This document shows positions 3,408 through 14,088 of a DNA stretch of 34,928 nucleotides, piece after piece. Numbering within the stretch: position 1 is the stretch's first letter; each line of letters opens with the position of its first letter. Under the pieces are notes generated by a model. The model made no database searches, was not told where the DNA came from, and saw nothing but the letters and a program-made list of their open reading frames with translations. This stretch comes from Actinomycetes bacterium. Its GTDB lineage: Bacteria > Actinomycetota > Acidimicrobiia > Acidimicrobiales > RAAP-2. The stretch spans positions 1 to 34,928 of the forward strand of contig JAJYWF010000013.1 in the NCBI GenBank assembly GCA_021791635.1, given 5' to 3'. The position numbers and the translations under genes were made by a program.

Positions 3408-4225
3408 GAGTGGGGCGCACCGTCGACGTTCCCAGTTCGGGCGGGGCCGTAGTTCAGGGACGGGCCGCAGGCTTCTGGCGGGATCTTTTAGCGATCGCCA
3501 CCCGGGCTCTGCGGCAGATGCGCCGGGAGCCGGTGTCCTTCCTTCCAGCGGTGTTCATCCCGGCCTTCTTCTACATGGTGAACCTGGGTGCCCTGGGGCG
3601 GTTGGCCGGAGCCGGGGGGCTCGATTACAAGGCGTTCCTGCTCCCCATGGCCATCGCCTTTGCCGTGACCGGGGTTTCTCGAGCGCCGACGCTGGTGACG
3701 GATATCCAGAGTGGGTACTTCGATCGGCTGTGTCTCACGCCTGTCCGCCGACTGGCGCTGCTCCTGGGCCTGATGGCGGCCGACGTGGTGGTCATCGTCG
3801 CGCTCACCATTCCGGTCCTGGTCCTCGGATTCGCCGTCGGGGTGCGCTTCTCCACCGGTGTCGGCGGAGTGTTGGTCTTTGTCGGGTTAGCCGCCCTTTG
3901 GGGACTGGTCTTCACCGGGTTCCCCTACGCCGTGGCTCTCAAGACCGGTAGCCCGGCGGCGGTGAACGCCACCTTCGTGGTGTTCTTCCCGTTCGCCTTC
4001 CTCACCGACGCCATCATCCCCAAGCAGGACCTCACCAGCTGGTTCTCGACCGTGGCCACGTACAACCCGGTGACCTATCTCCTCGGGGCTCAGCGATCGG
4101 TCATCATCGGCGGCTGGCAGGTCCACCCGCTCCTGTCCGGGCTGGCCGCGCTGGCCGGCTTGGGGCTGGTGAGCATGACCCTGGCCTTACTGGCGCTCCG
4201 TGGGCGGATCCGACGGGGCGCCTGA
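3404..4225 (+). CDS. ABC-2 exporter membrane permease, DrrB-like
   Basis: The 273-residue product has about six hydrophobic segments after an N-terminal cytoplasmic stretch. It has the layout of ABC-2 permeases: RALRQMRREPVSFL before the first membrane span, and TPVRRLALLLG as the cytoplasmic coupling helix. YNPVTYLLGAQR near residue 225 is typical of the C-terminal part. The ATG overlaps the ATPase stop by ATGA, so the two proteins are translationally coupled and form one pump. The last 39 bases overlap, tail to tail, with the end of the minus-strand KdpD-N gene. The frame is open further upstream from 3299, but those residues belong to the ATPase gene in another frame. Confidence 0.9.
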   Translation: MRVGRTVDVPSSGGAVVQGRAAGFWRDLLAIATRALRQMRREPVSFLPAVFIPAFFYMVNLGALGRLAGAGGLDYKAFLLPMAIAFAVTGVSRAPTLVTDIQSGYFDRLCLTPVRRLALLLGLMAADVVVIVALTIPVLVLGFAVGVRFSTGVGGVLVFVGLAALWGLVFTGFPYAVALKTGSPAAVNATFVVFFPFAFLTDAIIPKQDLTSWFSTVATYNPVTYLLGAQRSVIIGGWQVHPLLSGLAALAGLGLVSMTLALLALRGRIRRGA

Positions 4226-5428
4226 CTCCGGCGTGACCGCACCGAGCGACTCATCCTCCTCTCCGACGAGCTCGGCGGCGGGAACGTGGCGTCGGGCGAT
4301 GACGTGGACGTCAATGCCGACCGCTCCCGCCTCCCGAAGCACGCGGCGGACTACCGATCCACCCCCGGCCAGCTCCTGCCACCGGCTGCGCTGGCTGGAT
4401 CCGATGACGATCTGGGTGATCTGCTGCTCGATGGCCATTTGAGTGATGGCTCGCGCCGGGTCGTGATCCACCACCTCGTGCCAACGTGCACCCAGGGCAT
4501 GTGACAGCTCCTTCAGCTCGTGAAGGGATCGATTGGACGCAGCACTCTCACGCCGATCATCTTGAACATGGACCGCGGCCAGATCCCCCTTTACCCGCGA
4601 GGCGAGTCGAGCGGCCCGGCGGAGGAGGACGTCAGTTCCCGGAGCCGTGGTCACGGCCACCAAGATCCGTTCGGTGGTCTCCCAGAGCACGGTGGATCGG
4701 TGACGACGGAGGTGGGCCAGCAATTCCTCTTCCGTCTCATCGGCGAGGAACCGCAGAGCCAACTCCCGTAGCGCCGTGAGGTTGTCGGTCCGGAAGAAGT
4801 GGGAGAGTGCTTGGGGAACTTTGCTGGCCGGGTAGACATTGCCGTGGAGCATGCGGCGTCGGAGCTGTTCAGGGGAGGAGTCCACTAACTCGATCTGGTT
4901 GGCTCGCCGCACCACCTCGTCGGGAACCCGCTCGCGGACTCTCGCCCCCGTCATCTGCTCCACGGCGTCGGCCAGGCTCTCGAGGTGCTGGATGTTGACG
5001 GTCGTGATGACGTCGATTCCGGCATCGAGGATCTCCACGACGTCTTCCCATCGTTTGGCATGGCGGCCGGCACCGGGGGCGTTCGTGTGGGCGAGCTCGT
5101 CGATCAGCGTGACCTGGGCGTGCCGAGCGAGCACTGCGTCCAGGTCCATCTCTTCAAACTTGACTCCCCGGTGCTCGACGACTCTCCGGGGGAGTACTTC
5201 GAGCCCGTCGAGCTGAGCTTCGGTGAGCGGCCTTCCGTGGCATTCGACGAACCCCACTACTACGTCGGCCCCGCGCCGGGCCCGACGTTGGCCTTCACTC
5301 AACATGGCGTAGGTCTTGCCGACTCCCGGAGCGGCTCCGAGGTATATACGGAAGTGACCGGCGGCCTCGACGCCAGGATCACCAACCCGGAGCTCGCCTG
5401 GATCCACTTCACCGAGGTCCGCGCTCAA
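4187..5428 (-). CDS. kdpD: KdpD N-terminal sensor half: ATPase-like domain plus universal-stress domain
   Basis: This 413-residue soluble protein matches only the cytoplasmic N-terminal half of KdpD. The KdpD domain (about residues 24-235) contains the Walker-A-like GAAPGVGKTYAML at 31-43, VVGFVECHGR, and the Walker-B-like LIDELAHTNAPG. A universal-stress-protein domain (about 245-375) starts at RILVAVTTAPGTD and includes QITQIVIGSSQRSRW. It has no transmembrane segment, histidine-kinase domain or ATPase domain; those are in the separate gene at 11073-12776. It is the last gene of the kdp cluster. Its TTG start overlaps the stop of the OB-fold gene (TTGA). In full-length KdpD this half tunes kinase/phosphatase balance, so it may act here as a trans regulator of the membrane kinase. 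Confidence 0.88.
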   Translation of the reverse strand: MSADLGEVDPGELRVGDPGVEAAGHFRIYLGAAPGVGKTYAMLSEGQRRARRGADVVVGFVECHGRPLTEAQLDGLEVLPRRVVEHRGVKFEEMDLDAVLARHAQVTLIDELAHTNAPGAGRHAKRWEDVVEILDAGIDVITTVNIQHLESLADAVEQMTGARVRERVPDEVVRRANQIELVDSSPEQLRRRMLHGNVYPASKVPQALSHFFRTDNLTALRELALRFLADETEEELLAHLRRHRSTVLWETTERILVAVTTAPGTDVLLRRAARLASRVKGDLAAVHVQDDRRESAASNRSLHELKELSHALGARWHEVVDHDPARAITQMAIEQQITQIVIGSSQRSRWQELAGGGSVVRRVLREAGAVGIDVHVIARRHVPAAELVGEEDESLGAVTPESGAPSDPPTERQ

Positions 5429-10098: not shown

Positions 10099-10188
10099 TC
10101 AGAATCGCTCGGGCTTGAGAAGGGCCGCGCCTAGATAGATGAAGAGCACGGTCGACAGCGCAAGGAGGATTCCGTCGCTCAGGCTCAT
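10099..10188 (-). CDS. kdpF: KdpF small membrane subunit
   Basis: This 29-residue peptide consists of one membrane helix (ILLALSTVLFIYLGAALL) ending in the KdpF hallmark LLKPERF. KdpF is a lipid-like stabiliser of the KdpFABC complex. Its position immediately before kdpA is the standard one. The ATG at 10188 overlaps the TGA of the mini-ORF upstream as ATGA, and the stop abuts the kdpA ATG. It is easily missed in automated annotation because of its size. Confidence 0.9.
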   Translation of the reverse strand: MSLSDGILLALSTVLFIYLGAALLKPERF

Positions 10189-10268
10189 ATCCGATCGAGC
10201 CCCCGGACCAGGGCCAGCAAGGCGACGACTGAGATCACGATCCCGATCACGGAGAGAAAGTCGCCCAC
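10185..10268 (-). CDS. 27-residue membrane peptide upstream of kdpF
   Basis: Starting at GTG 10268, the frame encodes a hydrophobic helix (FLSVIGIVISVVALLALV) followed by the short positive end RGLDRI. Its TGA overlaps the kdpF ATG as ATGA, which supports translation by coupling. A tail of the form VRGLDRL/VRGCDRL on a one-helix peptide next to kdpF is, to my recollection, seen in other actinobacterial kdp operons. It might be a second accessory helix of the pump or a leader peptide that couples kdpF translation. The start is uncertain: no clear Shine-Dalgarno, and later GTG codons exist at 10250 and 10238. Confidence 0.55.
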   Translation of the reverse strand: MGDFLSVIGIVISVVALLALVRGLDRI

Positions 10269-10291
10269 ATCGGCAGTGTCGCCGCTGTGCC

Positions 10292-10340
10292 GTGAACCCG
10301 AACTGAACGCCTGCGGCTCGGCCGTGAACAGTCTGTGAAC
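10292..10340 (-). promoter_or_regulatory. Candidate KdpE binding site: four phased GTTCAC half-sites
   Basis: On the minus strand the 113-base gap between kdpE and the kdpF region holds GTTCAC (10335-10340), GTTCAC (10324-10329), GTTCAG (10303-10308) and GTTCAC (10292-10297). Each pair has an 11-bp period, and the pairs are 21 bp apart, so all four face roughly the same side of the helix. Tandem direct half-sites at 11-bp spacing are the usual target of OmpR/PhoB-family regulators, to which KdpE belongs. The last half-site ends 24 bases before the mini-ORF start, so the site would overlap or adjoin the kdpFABC promoter. Confidence 0.6.
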
Positions 10341-10381
10341 GAAGGTCTTCGGGGGCACGCGCCGGCTGTTGGCGAGCGTGG

Positions 10382-11071
10382 TCAGTCCGAAGGCGGAGCG
10401 ACCAGTGCGTAGCCGATGCCAGGCGTGGTGCGAAGGAGGCTGCCTTCGCGGTCGTTGAGCTTGCGGCGAAGTCGGTACACGTACACCCGCAGGTACTCGG
10501 CTTCGTCGCCGTACCCGTCGCCCCATACATGGCGCAGGATCATCTGGTGGGTGCAGATCTTCCCGGCATGAGAGGCCAGGTAGGCGAGCAGCTCGAACTC
10601 CCGGCCGGTGAGTCCCAGGGGCTCGTTGGCCAGGGTTGCCTGGTGGTGGACCAGGTCCAAGCTGAGCGGACCGACGGCGAGTACGGGCGGTCCGGTGGTC
10701 TGCGGGATGCGGCGGTGGTGGCGGAGCGCGGTGCGGATCCGGGCTTCGAGCTCGGCCATGCCGAACGGCTTGGTCACGTAGTCGTCGGCACCGCTGTCGA
10801 GGGCCGCCACCTTGCGGTCCTCCGATCCGGTAGCCGACAGCACGATGATGGCCGCGTCGGACCAGCTCCGGATCCTTCGGCATACGTCCAGCCCGTCGAT
10901 GTCGGGAAGACCCAAATCCAGCACGATGAGCTCGGGCGGGTCCAGGGCCGCCTTGGACAGTCCCTCCTCCCCGGTCACTGCGACGGCCACCTCGTAGCCC
11001 CGGGCCTCGAGGCCGACCCGTAGCGCTCGGAGGAGGGGCCGGTCGTCGTCGATCACCAGGACGCGGGCCAC
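10382..11071 (-). CDS. kdpE: KdpE response regulator (OmpR family)
   Basis: KdpE is the DNA-binding partner of KdpD and activates the pump genes when K+ is scarce. The 229-residue product has a receiver domain (residues 1-115) with acidic residues Asp8-Asp9-Asp10, phospho-acceptor Asp52 in LIVLDLGLPD, the switch residue Ser79, and Lys101 in YVTKPF. A winged-helix DNA-binding domain (about 130-225) includes LTGREFELLAYLA, HVWGDGYGDEAEYLRVYVYRLRRKL and the C-terminal GIGYAL. The GTG at 11071 starts one base after the kinase stop (TGA-C-GTG); the longer open frame to 11224 would overlap the kinase gene. The structural genes begin 113 bases downstream. Confidence 0.93.
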   Translation of the reverse strand: MARVLVIDDDRPLLRALRVGLEARGYEVAVAVTGEEGLSKAALDPPELIVLDLGLPDIDGLDVCRRIRSWSDAAIIVLSATGSEDRKVAALDSGADDYVTKPFGMAELEARIRTALRHHRRIPQTTGPPVLAVGPLSLDLVHHQATLANEPLGLTGREFELLAYLASHAGKICTHQMILRHVWGDGYGDEAEYLRVYVYRLRRKLNDREGSLLRTTPGIGYALVAPPSD

Positions 11072-11072
11072 G

Positions 11073-12776
11073 TCAGCCGTCCCTTCCGATACCGCTCGAG
11101 CCGTCTGACGGGTCGAGCGGACCCGGTGCGTGGACTGCAGGACCGGTGACGCGGTCATGACGAGGCCGCCCGGACCGGGAGCCTGGTCGGTCCACCGGCA
11201 AGGTGAAGGAGAAACGCGCTCCACCAGCTGCGGCCTCGTCTACCCAGATCTTCTCGTCATGGGCCGTGACGAAGGCGTGTGCGATCGCCAACCCCAGCCC
11301 ACCACGTCCTCCGGCCTCGCGGCGGTTGAACATGTGGAATATCCCCGAACGATCTTCACTCGAGATGCCGGGACCGTGGTCTTCGACGGCCATCAGCACC
11401 GTGTCATGGGCCGGGCGGGTCGCCGTGATCACGACGGGCGTGTCGGTGGGAGCGTAGGTGAGGGCATTGTCGATCAGGTTGACCAGGACTTGACCGACGA
11501 GGAGCGGGTCCACGTTGACTTGGGGCAGGTCGTCAGCGGGTAGCCATCGGATCCGGGTCAGGTCACTCCACGTGCCGATGGTATCGATGGCCTCCTCCAT
11601 GAGTGCGTGGACACTCGTGGCGCGACGCCGGAGCTCGAGAGCCCCGGACTGGATCCTGGTCATGTCCAAGAGATTTGCCACCAGTCGATCGAGGCGTCGA
11701 GCCTGGACTTCGACGAGATGAACCAGCTCGTCGTGGTCAGACGGGCTGATCGGCGCGTCCGGGTCCGAGAGAGCCGAGGTTGCCACCAAGATGGTGGCCA
11801 GGGGAGTCCGAAGGTCGTGGGAGACCGCCCCCACCAGCGACCGCCGGAGCCGGTCTACCTCCTCTAGGAGACGACTCCTCACCGCCTGCTCACGGAGTTG
11901 GGAACGCTCCAGGGCCAGGGCTAGATGATTGGCGAACGCCCGAAGGAGCTCGTGGTCCTGGGTGGTCCCCGGGAGCCCCCTCAGCGCCAGAAGTCCCACA
12001 GGCTCACCCGCCAGCGCCAGGGCGAGGACCTGGACGCCGTCCTGCCCGGAGCGAGAACCGTCGAGACTGACCGGGAGCCGGGAGCTCGAGAGCCGGCGAA
12101 GCTCATCGTCGGTGAGCGGTTCGCCAGCCGAGGCCATGAGCTGCAGGCGGCCCGACGAAGGAAGCAGCAGGGCCACCCCTCCGAGCTCGAAGGCTTCATG
12201 TACGGAGGTGACGACGGCAGTGAGAAGTTCGTTCAGAGGGGACTCCCGGACCAACAGCTCCGACGAGTCGAACAGGCGCCGTAGCTCCGCAGTCCGGCGC
12301 TCGGCATCGGTGCGAGCCAGGGTGGCACGGCCCACCAGGCGAGCCACGACGACCATGACCACCGCATAGACCCCGAGTGCCGTCCAGTTCTGCGCGGCCC
12401 CAACGGAGAGCGTGTTGTACGGAGGAAGAAAGACCAGGTCGTAGGCCAGGAATCCCGACGCCGTGGCGATGACCCCGGCACCGAACCCGCCGATCGCCAC
12501 CCCCACGACGACGGGCACGACCAGCACCAGCGCCGAGGTGGCAGCGCTGAGGTGGGCCCGGAACGGCAGCATTGCAGCACTCAGGAGCACGACCAGCACC
12601 ACCGCAATCCCGGCGCCGAGAAAGGCCAGGCGCGGAGGTAGGTGCGCCCGATTAGGCCTCCGGCGCCACAGTGACTTCGGGCTCCCGCCGGATCCCGGCG
12701 CGCTCTTGCCGTCGAGCGCGGCGGCCCCCATGTCGCCGGGTGTGTCGAGAGAACCAGCGCGCCGTTCCAACGTCAT
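11073..12776 (-). CDS. kdpD: KdpD C-terminal half: membrane sensor histidine kinase
   Basis: This 567-residue protein has only the second half of KdpD. It has a four-helix membrane domain of the DUF4118 type (about residues 48-150, with GFLAYDLVFLPPYNTLSV), a GAF-like region (about 165-295), a HisKA domain with phospho-accepting His320 in GAVSHDLRTPL, and a HATPase domain (NLIDNALTYAP, DHGPGIS, GGLGLAIAHAF). The KdpD ATPase-like and universal-stress domains are missing and lie in the separate gene at 4187-5428. It precedes kdpE, overlapping none but with one base between. The ATG at 12776 has no Shine-Dalgarno and sits 6 bases from a perfect 8-bp hairpin. The open frame extends upstream to 13109, but that stretch overlaps the acyl-CoA dehydrogenase gene. 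Confidence 0.9.
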   Translation of the reverse strand: MTLERRAGSLDTPGDMGAAALDGKSAPGSGGSPKSLWRRRPNRAHLPPRLAFLGAGIAVVLVVLLSAAMLPFRAHLSAATSALVLVVPVVVGVAIGGFGAGVIATASGFLAYDLVFLPPYNTLSVGAAQNWTALGVYAVVMVVVARLVGRATLARTDAERRTAELRRLFDSSELLVRESPLNELLTAVVTSVHEAFELGGVALLLPSSGRLQLMASAGEPLTDDELRRLSSSRLPVSLDGSRSGQDGVQVLALALAGEPVGLLALRGLPGTTQDHELLRAFANHLALALERSQLREQAVRSRLLEEVDRLRRSLVGAVSHDLRTPLATILVATSALSDPDAPISPSDHDELVHLVEVQARRLDRLVANLLDMTRIQSGALELRRRATSVHALMEEAIDTIGTWSDLTRIRWLPADDLPQVNVDPLLVGQVLVNLIDNALTYAPTDTPVVITATRPAHDTVLMAVEDHGPGISSEDRSGIFHMFNRREAGGRGGLGLAIAHAFVTAHDEKIWVDEAAAGGARFSFTLPVDRPGSRSGRPRHDRVTGPAVHAPGPLDPSDGSSGIGRDG

Positions 12777-12782
12777 CCAGCA

Positions 12783-12806
12783 TGCACCGAACGCGTACTC
12801 GGTGCA
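12783..12806. promoter_or_regulatory. Perfect 8-bp inverted repeat at the start of the kdp locus
   Basis: TGCACCGA (12783-12790) and TCGGTGCA (12799-12806) are exact inverse complements separated by 8 bases. The element lies in the 55-base gap between the acyl-CoA dehydrogenase stop and the kinase ATG at 12776. It could be an operator, a terminator for the upstream gene (no T-tract follows) or an RNA hairpin that hides the kinase start. The sequence alone cannot choose among these. Confidence 0.45.
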
Positions 12807-12831
12807 CCTGCGGGGACCGAACGGCGCCGGA

Positions 12832-14088
12832 TCAGTTGCCGAAGTCCCAGCCTTCGCCTGATTCGTATCGGTGGATGACGTTCTTGGCGATGAGGATCTT
12901 GTGCACTTCGTCCGGTCCGTCGGCCAAGCGCAGGGTCCGAGCACCCTGGTACATGGTCGCCAGCGGGAGATCGTTCGAGACTCCGGCAGCACCCCAGACC
13001 TGGATGGCACGGTCGACCACGCGCTCGTAAGCCGCGGGCACGAAGATCTTGATGGCGGAGATGTCGGTACGTGCGTCCTGGTCGTCTCGGTCCGTCTTCT
13101 CGGCGGCATGGATGGTCATCAGTCGAGCCGCTTGAATGTCCTGGTAGCTGTCGGCGATGAAGCCTTGGATGAATTGCTTGTCCTTCAACGGGCCCCCGTG
13201 GACTTGGCGTGAGGTGGCGCGCTCGATCATGAGATCGAAGGCCCGCCACATCTGCCCCACCGAGTTCATGCAGTGGTAGATGCGCCCGGCGCCCAGACGA
13301 TCTTGGGCGGCACGGTGCCCGTCTCCGACGTTCCCCAAGATGTTCTCGGCCGGCACCCGGACGTTCTCGTAGATCACTTCGCAGTGGTCCGAGGTAGATC
13401 GTCCCCAGATTCCGATTCCCCGGACCACGTTCACCCCCGAGGTGGAGGTGGGCACGATGATCTGGGCCATCTGGCCGGTGCGTCCGAGCTCTCCGGCGTC
13501 GTCGTGAACCCGGCACATCACGATGAAGAAGTCGGCGTCGATCCCGTTGGAGGTGAACCACTTGTGCCCGTTGATGACCCAATGGTCACCGTCACGGACA
13601 GCGGTGGTGTCCAACGAACGGGGATCGGAGCCGGGGTTGTGCGGCTCGGTCATAGAGAACCCCGACTCCATGGTCCCTTCGATCAGTGGCACCAGCCATT
13701 TCCGCTTCTGCTCCTCGGTGCCGTACTTGAGCAGGATCCGCTGGTTGCCCGAGTTGGGGGCCACGACTCCGAACAGCTTTGCCGCACCCAGGGCGTAGGC
13801 CAGCACCTCGTTCATGTAGGCGTGGCTCAGGAAGTCCAGCCCCATACCGCCGTACTCGACCGGCAGGTGCGGTGCCCACAGCCCGGCCTGGCGTACCCGC
13901 TGCTGTACCTCCTCACGCAGTTCGTAGGCGCGCCTACGGTCGGCTTCGGCGAGCTCAGCACCCTCTCGTTGCGGCCACAGGGTCCGCTCGTAGGGGAGGA
14001 TCCAGGTGTTCACGATCTCGGCGGTCCGCATGCGGATGTCGTTGATCCGCTCGTCGAGGGTCGGCACCGGCTTCACGTTCATGGTCAC
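12832..14088 (-). CDS. Acyl-CoA dehydrogenase, ACAD10/ACAD11-like
   Basis: This FAD enzyme would introduce a double bond between C2 and C3 of an acyl-CoA. The 418-residue product has the N-terminal helical domain (LWAPHLPVEYGGMG), the middle beta domain (SMTEPHNPGSD, WVINGHKWFTSNG), and the C-terminal helical domain (ALATMYQGARTLR is seen as LATMYQGARTLR). Instead of the common YEGT motif it ends RLADGPDEVHK, typical of ACAD10/11-like enzymes. In mammals these act on 4-hydroxyacyl-CoA derivatives with a kinase-like partner domain, which is absent here. GTG at 14088 is preceded by GGAGG with a 7-base spacer, making it better placed than the ATG at 14082. It is the first gene of the minus-strand run before the kdp locus. 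Confidence 0.92.
   Translation of the reverse strand: MTMNVKPVPTLDERINDIRMRTAEIVNTWILPYERTLWPQREGAELAEADRRRAYELREEVQQRVRQAGLWAPHLPVEYGGMGLDFLSHAYMNEVLAYALGAAKLFGVVAPNSGNQRILLKYGTEEQKRKWLVPLIEGTMESGFSMTEPHNPGSDPRSLDTTAVRDGDHWVINGHKWFTSNGIDADFFIVMCRVHDDAGELGRTGQMAQIIVPTSTSGVNVVRGIGIWGRSTSDHCEVIYENVRVPAENILGNVGDGHRAAQDRLGAGRIYHCMNSVGQMWRAFDLMIERATSRQVHGGPLKDKQFIQGFIADSYQDIQAARLMTIHAAEKTDRDDQDARTDISAIKIFVPAAYERVVDRAIQVWGAAGVSNDLPLATMYQGARTLRLADGPDEVHKILIAKNVIHRYESGEGWDFGN

Follow-up and report, generated by a model that had tools for sequence, protein, structure and literature searches.

In Escherichia coli, KdpE binds upstream of kdpFABC at a site (kdpFABC-BS) that reads TTTATA-N5-TTTACA, with a footprint extending from -72 to -50 relative to the transcription start site (PMC3264566). 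In Mycobacterium smegmatis, footprinting and a minimal gel shift placed the KdpE site in a 22-bp sequence, CCGTAAAGAAACCATCAAGGCC, upstream of kdpF; the authors noted no resemblance to other KdpE motifs, proposed a SigF promoter and reported a 120-nt 5' untranslated region for kdpFABC (PMC5401905). On searching that paper, we found no mention of direct repeats. The PHO box of Streptomyces PhoP consists of 11-nt direct repeats of GTTCACC (PMC4415409). Here we describe four tandem half-sites upstream of the kdp operon in a genome of the Acidimicrobiales (contig JAJYWF010000013.1, positions 1 to 34,928; this whole stretch of 34,928 nt is referred to below as the window). Judged from sequence comparison, they very probably constitute the operator of this operon and are predicted to be bound by the KdpE encoded just upstream. 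Support comes from the sequence itself, which is rare and is conserved among relatives, from its occurrence together with a KdpE orthologue, and from the link between it and the type of KdpE recognition helix.

Tandem half-sites upstream of kdpFABC

The half-sites form a distal and a proximal pair, with offsets counted from the start of the first:
10335..10340, minus strand, half-site 1 (GTTCAC), distal pair, offset 0; conserved in relatives as column set HS1
10324..10329, minus strand, half-site 2 (GTTCAC), distal pair, offset 11
10303..10308, minus strand, half-site 3 (GTTCAG), proximal pair, offset 32
10292..10297, minus strand, half-site 4 (GTTCAC), proximal pair, offset 43

Read 5' to 3', the minus strand between 10292 and 10340 is GTTCACAGACTGTTCACGGCCGAGCCGCAGGCGTTCAGTTCGGGTTCAC, and the bases that follow the four half-sites (position 7) are A, G, T and G. 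The 11-bp period is exact, and the coordinates are those given in a preliminary description of this DNA, which had recognized two pairs on the minus strand. Its figure of 21 bp between the pairs is correct as a start-to-start distance, whereas the facing edges lie 15 bp apart. All four half-sites fall within the 113-bp gap (10269-10381) that separates the kdpE stop codon (10382) from the GTG start (10268) of a 27-amino-acid open reading frame (ORF), consistent with their earlier placement between kdpE and the structural genes. The arrangement matches the OmpR/PhoB-type layout, in which direct repeats with a 10-11 bp period stand in tandem upstream of the cognate operon. The cognate kdpE is present at the locus, and the recognition helix of its product is homologous to that of E. 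coli KdpE.

The quartet is unique in the genome (2.46 Mb, 155 contigs). Exact GTTCAV-N5-GTTCAV pairs occur twice, both contributed by the quartet, and the relaxed pattern TTNA-N7-TTNA-N17-TTNA-N7-TTNA has a single match, in the kdp gap. Random sequence of the same length yielded approximately one GTTCA-N6-GTTCA pair and no quartets in three simulations. With a weight matrix built from 73 relatives and not from the window, the site scored 36 bits, as opposed to 6.1 bits for the best non-overlapping position in the window.

Conservation was evaluated at kdpA loci from 148 related genomes and 80 named loci; the relatives found by name were mostly metagenome assemblies of Acidimicrobiales and Acidimicrobiaceae. 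Visual inspection of close relatives showed the same pairs at positions -241/-243 and -209/-211 relative to kdpA. Expectation-maximization with four half-sites returned NTTNAN-N5-NTTNAN-N14/15-NTTNAN-N5-NTTNAN in about 50 promoters and in most of a further close set. Half-site positions 2, 3 and 5 (T, T and A) were nearly invariant, and positions 4 and 6 were variable, with position 6 tending toward the same letter within one promoter. Loss of the repeats from relatives that keep the gene order, named in the preliminary description as a finding that would speak against KdpE, was not seen: relatives retain the repeats, their spacing and their position.

The operator also accompanied KdpE. All 50 loci that combine a KdpE orthologue with a kdpA at 60% identity or more scored between 10 and 42 bits, with a matrix trained partly on those same loci. 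The sole locus at this level of kdpA identity that lacked a KdpE match scored -10; its genome is a single contig with a completeness rating of 99%. For distant kdp paralogues from the same genomes, scores were mostly near or below zero. The operator was found with kdpDE located upstream, divergently or elsewhere in the genome, and nearly every operator-bearing genome encoded one KdpE orthologue. A distant kdpA (47-57% identity), sometimes as a second copy, was found in relatives L003-L018, L089, L100-L103, L106-L110 and L112, mostly without a KdpE operator upstream, and many genomes with a distant kdpA had no KdpE orthologue at E <= 1e-60.

Half-site letters, the KdpE helix and other candidate binders

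We paired operators with the KdpE encoded in the same genome, which gave 75 KdpE-operator pairs. None of the other columns, out of some 230 in KdpE, carried as much information on half-site position 6 as that of R196 in the window KdpE. This residue aligns with R193 of E. coli KdpE, an arginine that DNA binding requires and that has been described as conserved in KdpE orthologues only (PMC3264566). Where the R193 position held His, half-site position 6 was G in 100/100 cases (NTTNAG); with Arg it was C or T in 170 of 184 (NTTNA(C/T)); with Lys it was C in all 16, 14 of which also had C at position 7 (NTTNACC). Half-site position 4 varied with neighboring helix residues, being C or T in 82/88 cases with Tyr200 and mostly G, C or A with His200. 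The operator matched the KdpE type of its genome even inside two genera: in g8 as in g10, a C/T-type operator occurred in the genome that encodes an Arg-type KdpE, and the other genomes combined His with G. The operator sequence thus correlates with the DNA-reading helix of KdpE, a correlation limited by the single origin of each helix class (see below).

The same architecture appeared farther away in the phylum. In 20 Actinomycete kdp loci, where the KdpE helix was mostly YLRVYLAQLRRKL or YLRVYMAQLRRKL, GTNARS words upstream of kdpA were most often spaced by 11 (18 occurrences), 21 (12), 32 (13) and 43 bp (4), with 0 to 3 occurrences of other spacings. These spikes indicate that the 0/11/32/43 arrangement is present in Actinomycetes with other letters. 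We consider it fairly likely that Actinomycetota share a four-half-site KdpE operator of fixed spacing and that its letters have changed more than once in step with the KdpE helix (the R193 position being occupied by Arg, His or Lys, in YVYR, YAHR or YLAQ contexts). A search for further His-type KdpE in 396 genomes of the phylum found none; it was a weak search, with a degenerate DNA pattern that excluded Ile before His.

Several observations weigh against KdpE as the reader of these letters. When the KdpE tree was computed with the helix left out, His-type and Lys-type proteins each had a single origin; the half-site counts are therefore not independent events, the correlation rests on few of them, and a phylogenetic sign test had no power with one His and one Lys origin. 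Half-site 3 of the window, GTTCAG, carries an off-class letter for an Arg-type KdpE, and one relative (L086) combines an Arg-type KdpE with mostly G half-sites. The Actinomycete helix YLRVYLAQLRRKL has Arg, yet its sites are GTNAAG. The residue at the R193 position alone does not set the letter at position 6, and there is no universal one-residue code. Finally, E. coli KdpE uses one pair only, whereas the window has two. A universal rule by which Arg gives C/T and His gives G was considered and rejected on the basis of the Actinomycete KdpE.

The preliminary description had based its KdpE reading on the 11-bp period as a mark of OmpR/PhoB regulators. The reading is supported, since relatives keep the repeats and the half-site letters track the KdpE recognition helix, but that reason alone is too weak, because 11-bp repeats of GTTCAC also make up the PHO box. 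PhoP/RegX3 binding to the repeats, which would couple K+ uptake to the phosphate state, has to be weighed for this reason: the PHO box shares its period, strand logic and first six letters with the half-sites of the window lineage, and two relatives, L143 and L160, have GTTCACC-N4-GTTCACC in front of pstS. However, the GTTCACC core needs C at position 7, where the relatives' pst boxes carry it and the window quartet has A, G, T and G. In addition, in a handful of loci compared by eye, pst boxes stay GTTCNC(C)-like where the kdp half-sites have become GTTGAC or GTTCAG, which argues that the kdp sites follow KdpE and not PhoP. The quartet is also found at kdp and not at a Pho-regulon gene; the only repeat at the genome's own pst locus, which lacks a quartet, is GTTCCC-N5-GTTCAT upstream of pstB. 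A PHO box is accordingly an improbable explanation, and PhoP is unlikely to be the main binder, although cross-binding in the window lineage is conceivable. In the Lys-type KdpE loci (L172, L178, L194 and L080), the half-sites end in CACC, the same letters as in the PHO box, and KdpE/PhoP cross-talk looks most likely in this class.

Some other OmpR/PhoB-family regulator might bind the quartet or share it with KdpE. Other OmpR-type regulators are numerous, with about 10 to 40 candidates at first look in most genomes, and the half-site is PHO-like. Such a binder is nevertheless very improbable, given that the best-correlated column lies in the KdpE recognition helix (the correlation was computed for KdpE alone) and that the operator is missing from the only close kdp locus without a KdpE match. 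A chance repeat or functionless remnant could draw on the abundance of single GTTCAC words, 22 of which occur in the window against 15 expected. This possibility is negligible: there is no second quartet in the genome and none in random sequence, and conservation across the order and, with other letters, across the phylum already refutes it.

Candidate promoter and the kdp genes

We propose that KdpE would act at the quartet as follows. Each 11-bp-period pair would hold one head-to-tail KdpE dimer, and with the pairs 32 bp apart, or approximately three helical turns, two dimers would be stacked on one face of the DNA. The proximal pair ends 11 bp before a -10-like element, where a -35 element normally acts. 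PhoB replaces the -35 contact, and KdpE dimers on the proximal pair would do the same; from this position, KdpE is probably a PhoB-type (class II) activator that recruits RNA polymerase at low K+. The distal pair would sit where E. coli KdpE binds (-72 to -50). The probable transcription start coincides with the start codon of the 27-amino-acid ORF ahead of kdpF or directly adjoins it, which would give a leaderless mRNA. The promoter elements, which the preliminary description had omitted together with the start-codon geometry, are:
10275..10280, minus strand, -10-like hexamer GACACT (NANNNT), 17 bp after the start of half-site 4
10185..10268, minus strand, 27-amino-acid membrane-peptide ORF with a GTG start, preceding kdpF; predicted leaderless start of the operon

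In 74 promoters, the NANNNT stretch at +17 to +22 from half-site 4 had A in 82% and T in 81%. A start codon lay at +29 to +31 from half-site 4 in 67 of the 69 promoters in which one was recognized; in the window, the GTG is at 29 nt. No -35 hexamer was found at normal spacing to GACACT, and a scan of the operator region for sigma-70 consensus promoters and terminators returned nothing. The -10-like element and the start codon about 29 bp past half-site 4 suggest a promoter that is leaderless and depends on an activator. With the GTG as the assumed transcription start, the half-sites lie at about -72, -61, -40 and -29.

The product of the ORF, MGDFLSVIGIVISVVALLALVRGLDRI, is hydrophobic and looks like one membrane span. 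An ORF after the operator was found in 72 of 74 promoters, and all 72 were exactly 27 amino acids long and showed a third-codon-position excess. The peptide matched no Pfam or NCBIfam family above cut-off; it is perhaps another small subunit of Kdp, or a regulator. Similar 27-amino-acid ORFs precede kdpF in L258 and L230 (Mesorhizobium). The stretch that precedes kdpF in L258, an Actinomycete locus, reads MSVLLYVVLTATVFAVLGLVQKLVERL; by analogy with it, the 120-nt 5' untranslated region of M. smegmatis may encode such a peptide.

All kdp genes are on the minus strand, in the order kdpD kinase half, kdpE, operator, 27-amino-acid ORF, kdpF, kdpA, kdpB, kdpC and KdpD sensor half:
11073..13109, minus strand, kdpD kinase half (KdpD 396-885), PRK10490, under cut-off
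10382..11224, minus strand, kdpE response regulator, ORF as listed, with homology beginning near 11074; recognition helix EAEYLRVYVYRLRRKL
10099..10188, minus strand, kdpF, TIGR02115 and PF09604
8404..10098, minus strand, kdpA, TIGR00680, 705 bits
6332..8434, minus strand, kdpB, TIGR01497
5759..6313, minus strand, kdpC, all best NCBIfam matches KdpC, under curated cut-offs
4187..5428, minus strand, KdpD N-terminal, non-kinase K+ sensor half, a separate gene after kdpC, NF038185, 376 bits, cut-off 550

The best NCBIfam match of the kdpE product was PRK10529 KdpE (189 bits, cut-off 325), a score under the curated cut-off as expected for a distant orthologue, and its best PDB matches were E. coli KdpE (4kfc/4kny). 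KdpD is split, with the kinase half encoded upstream of kdpE and the N-terminal sensor half in its own gene downstream of kdpC; the product of the latter is closest to the NCBIfam 'KdpD-like non-kinase potassium sensor'.

Comparison with known KdpE and PhoP sites

A tandem OmpR/PhoB-family operator for KdpE is of a known kind. As far as the open-access literature searched shows, three features are new, though they may have been described elsewhere: an operator of four half-sites, the conservation of this form across the Actinomycetota, and the link between the operator letters and the KdpE helix. The quartet provides a concrete predicted KdpE operator for a lineage in which we found none described. 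If the operator is indeed shared, the phylum offers a natural series of matched regulator-operator specificity switches at all four half-sites, and such matched variants would allow a test of how OmpR/PhoB regulators change their DNA specificity.

The KdpE sites of E. coli and M. smegmatis, reported to be dissimilar, fit one frame. The M. smegmatis sequence reads GTAAAG-N5-ATCAAG, which is one 11-bp tandem pair. The sampled Actinomycete kdp promoters show further half-sites at spacings of 21 and 32 bp. For M. smegmatis, the four-site arrangement predicts another KdpE pair farther upstream, which the minimal site would have missed. The M. smegmatis site itself had two matches at up to two mismatches in 396 genomes, and a plasmid search for actinobacterial KdpE gave rhizobial top matches. 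Like the His-class sites described here, the M. smegmatis site is an 11-bp tandem repeat from the same phylum, upstream of kdpF; it differs from the window quartet in its half-site letters.

With kdpFABC-BS of E. coli, the window shares the 5-bp spacer and the invariant TT start (positions 2-3 of GTTCAC). If transcription starts at the 27-amino-acid ORF, the distal pair (-72 to -56) matches the E. coli footprint. The E. coli half-sites are AT-rich, TTTA(T/C)A, whereas those of the window are richer in G+C and of the TTCAC(A/G) type. The proximal pair occupies the -35 place, unlike the E. coli kdp site. The quartet differs from the Streptomyces PHO box in both target gene and regulator.
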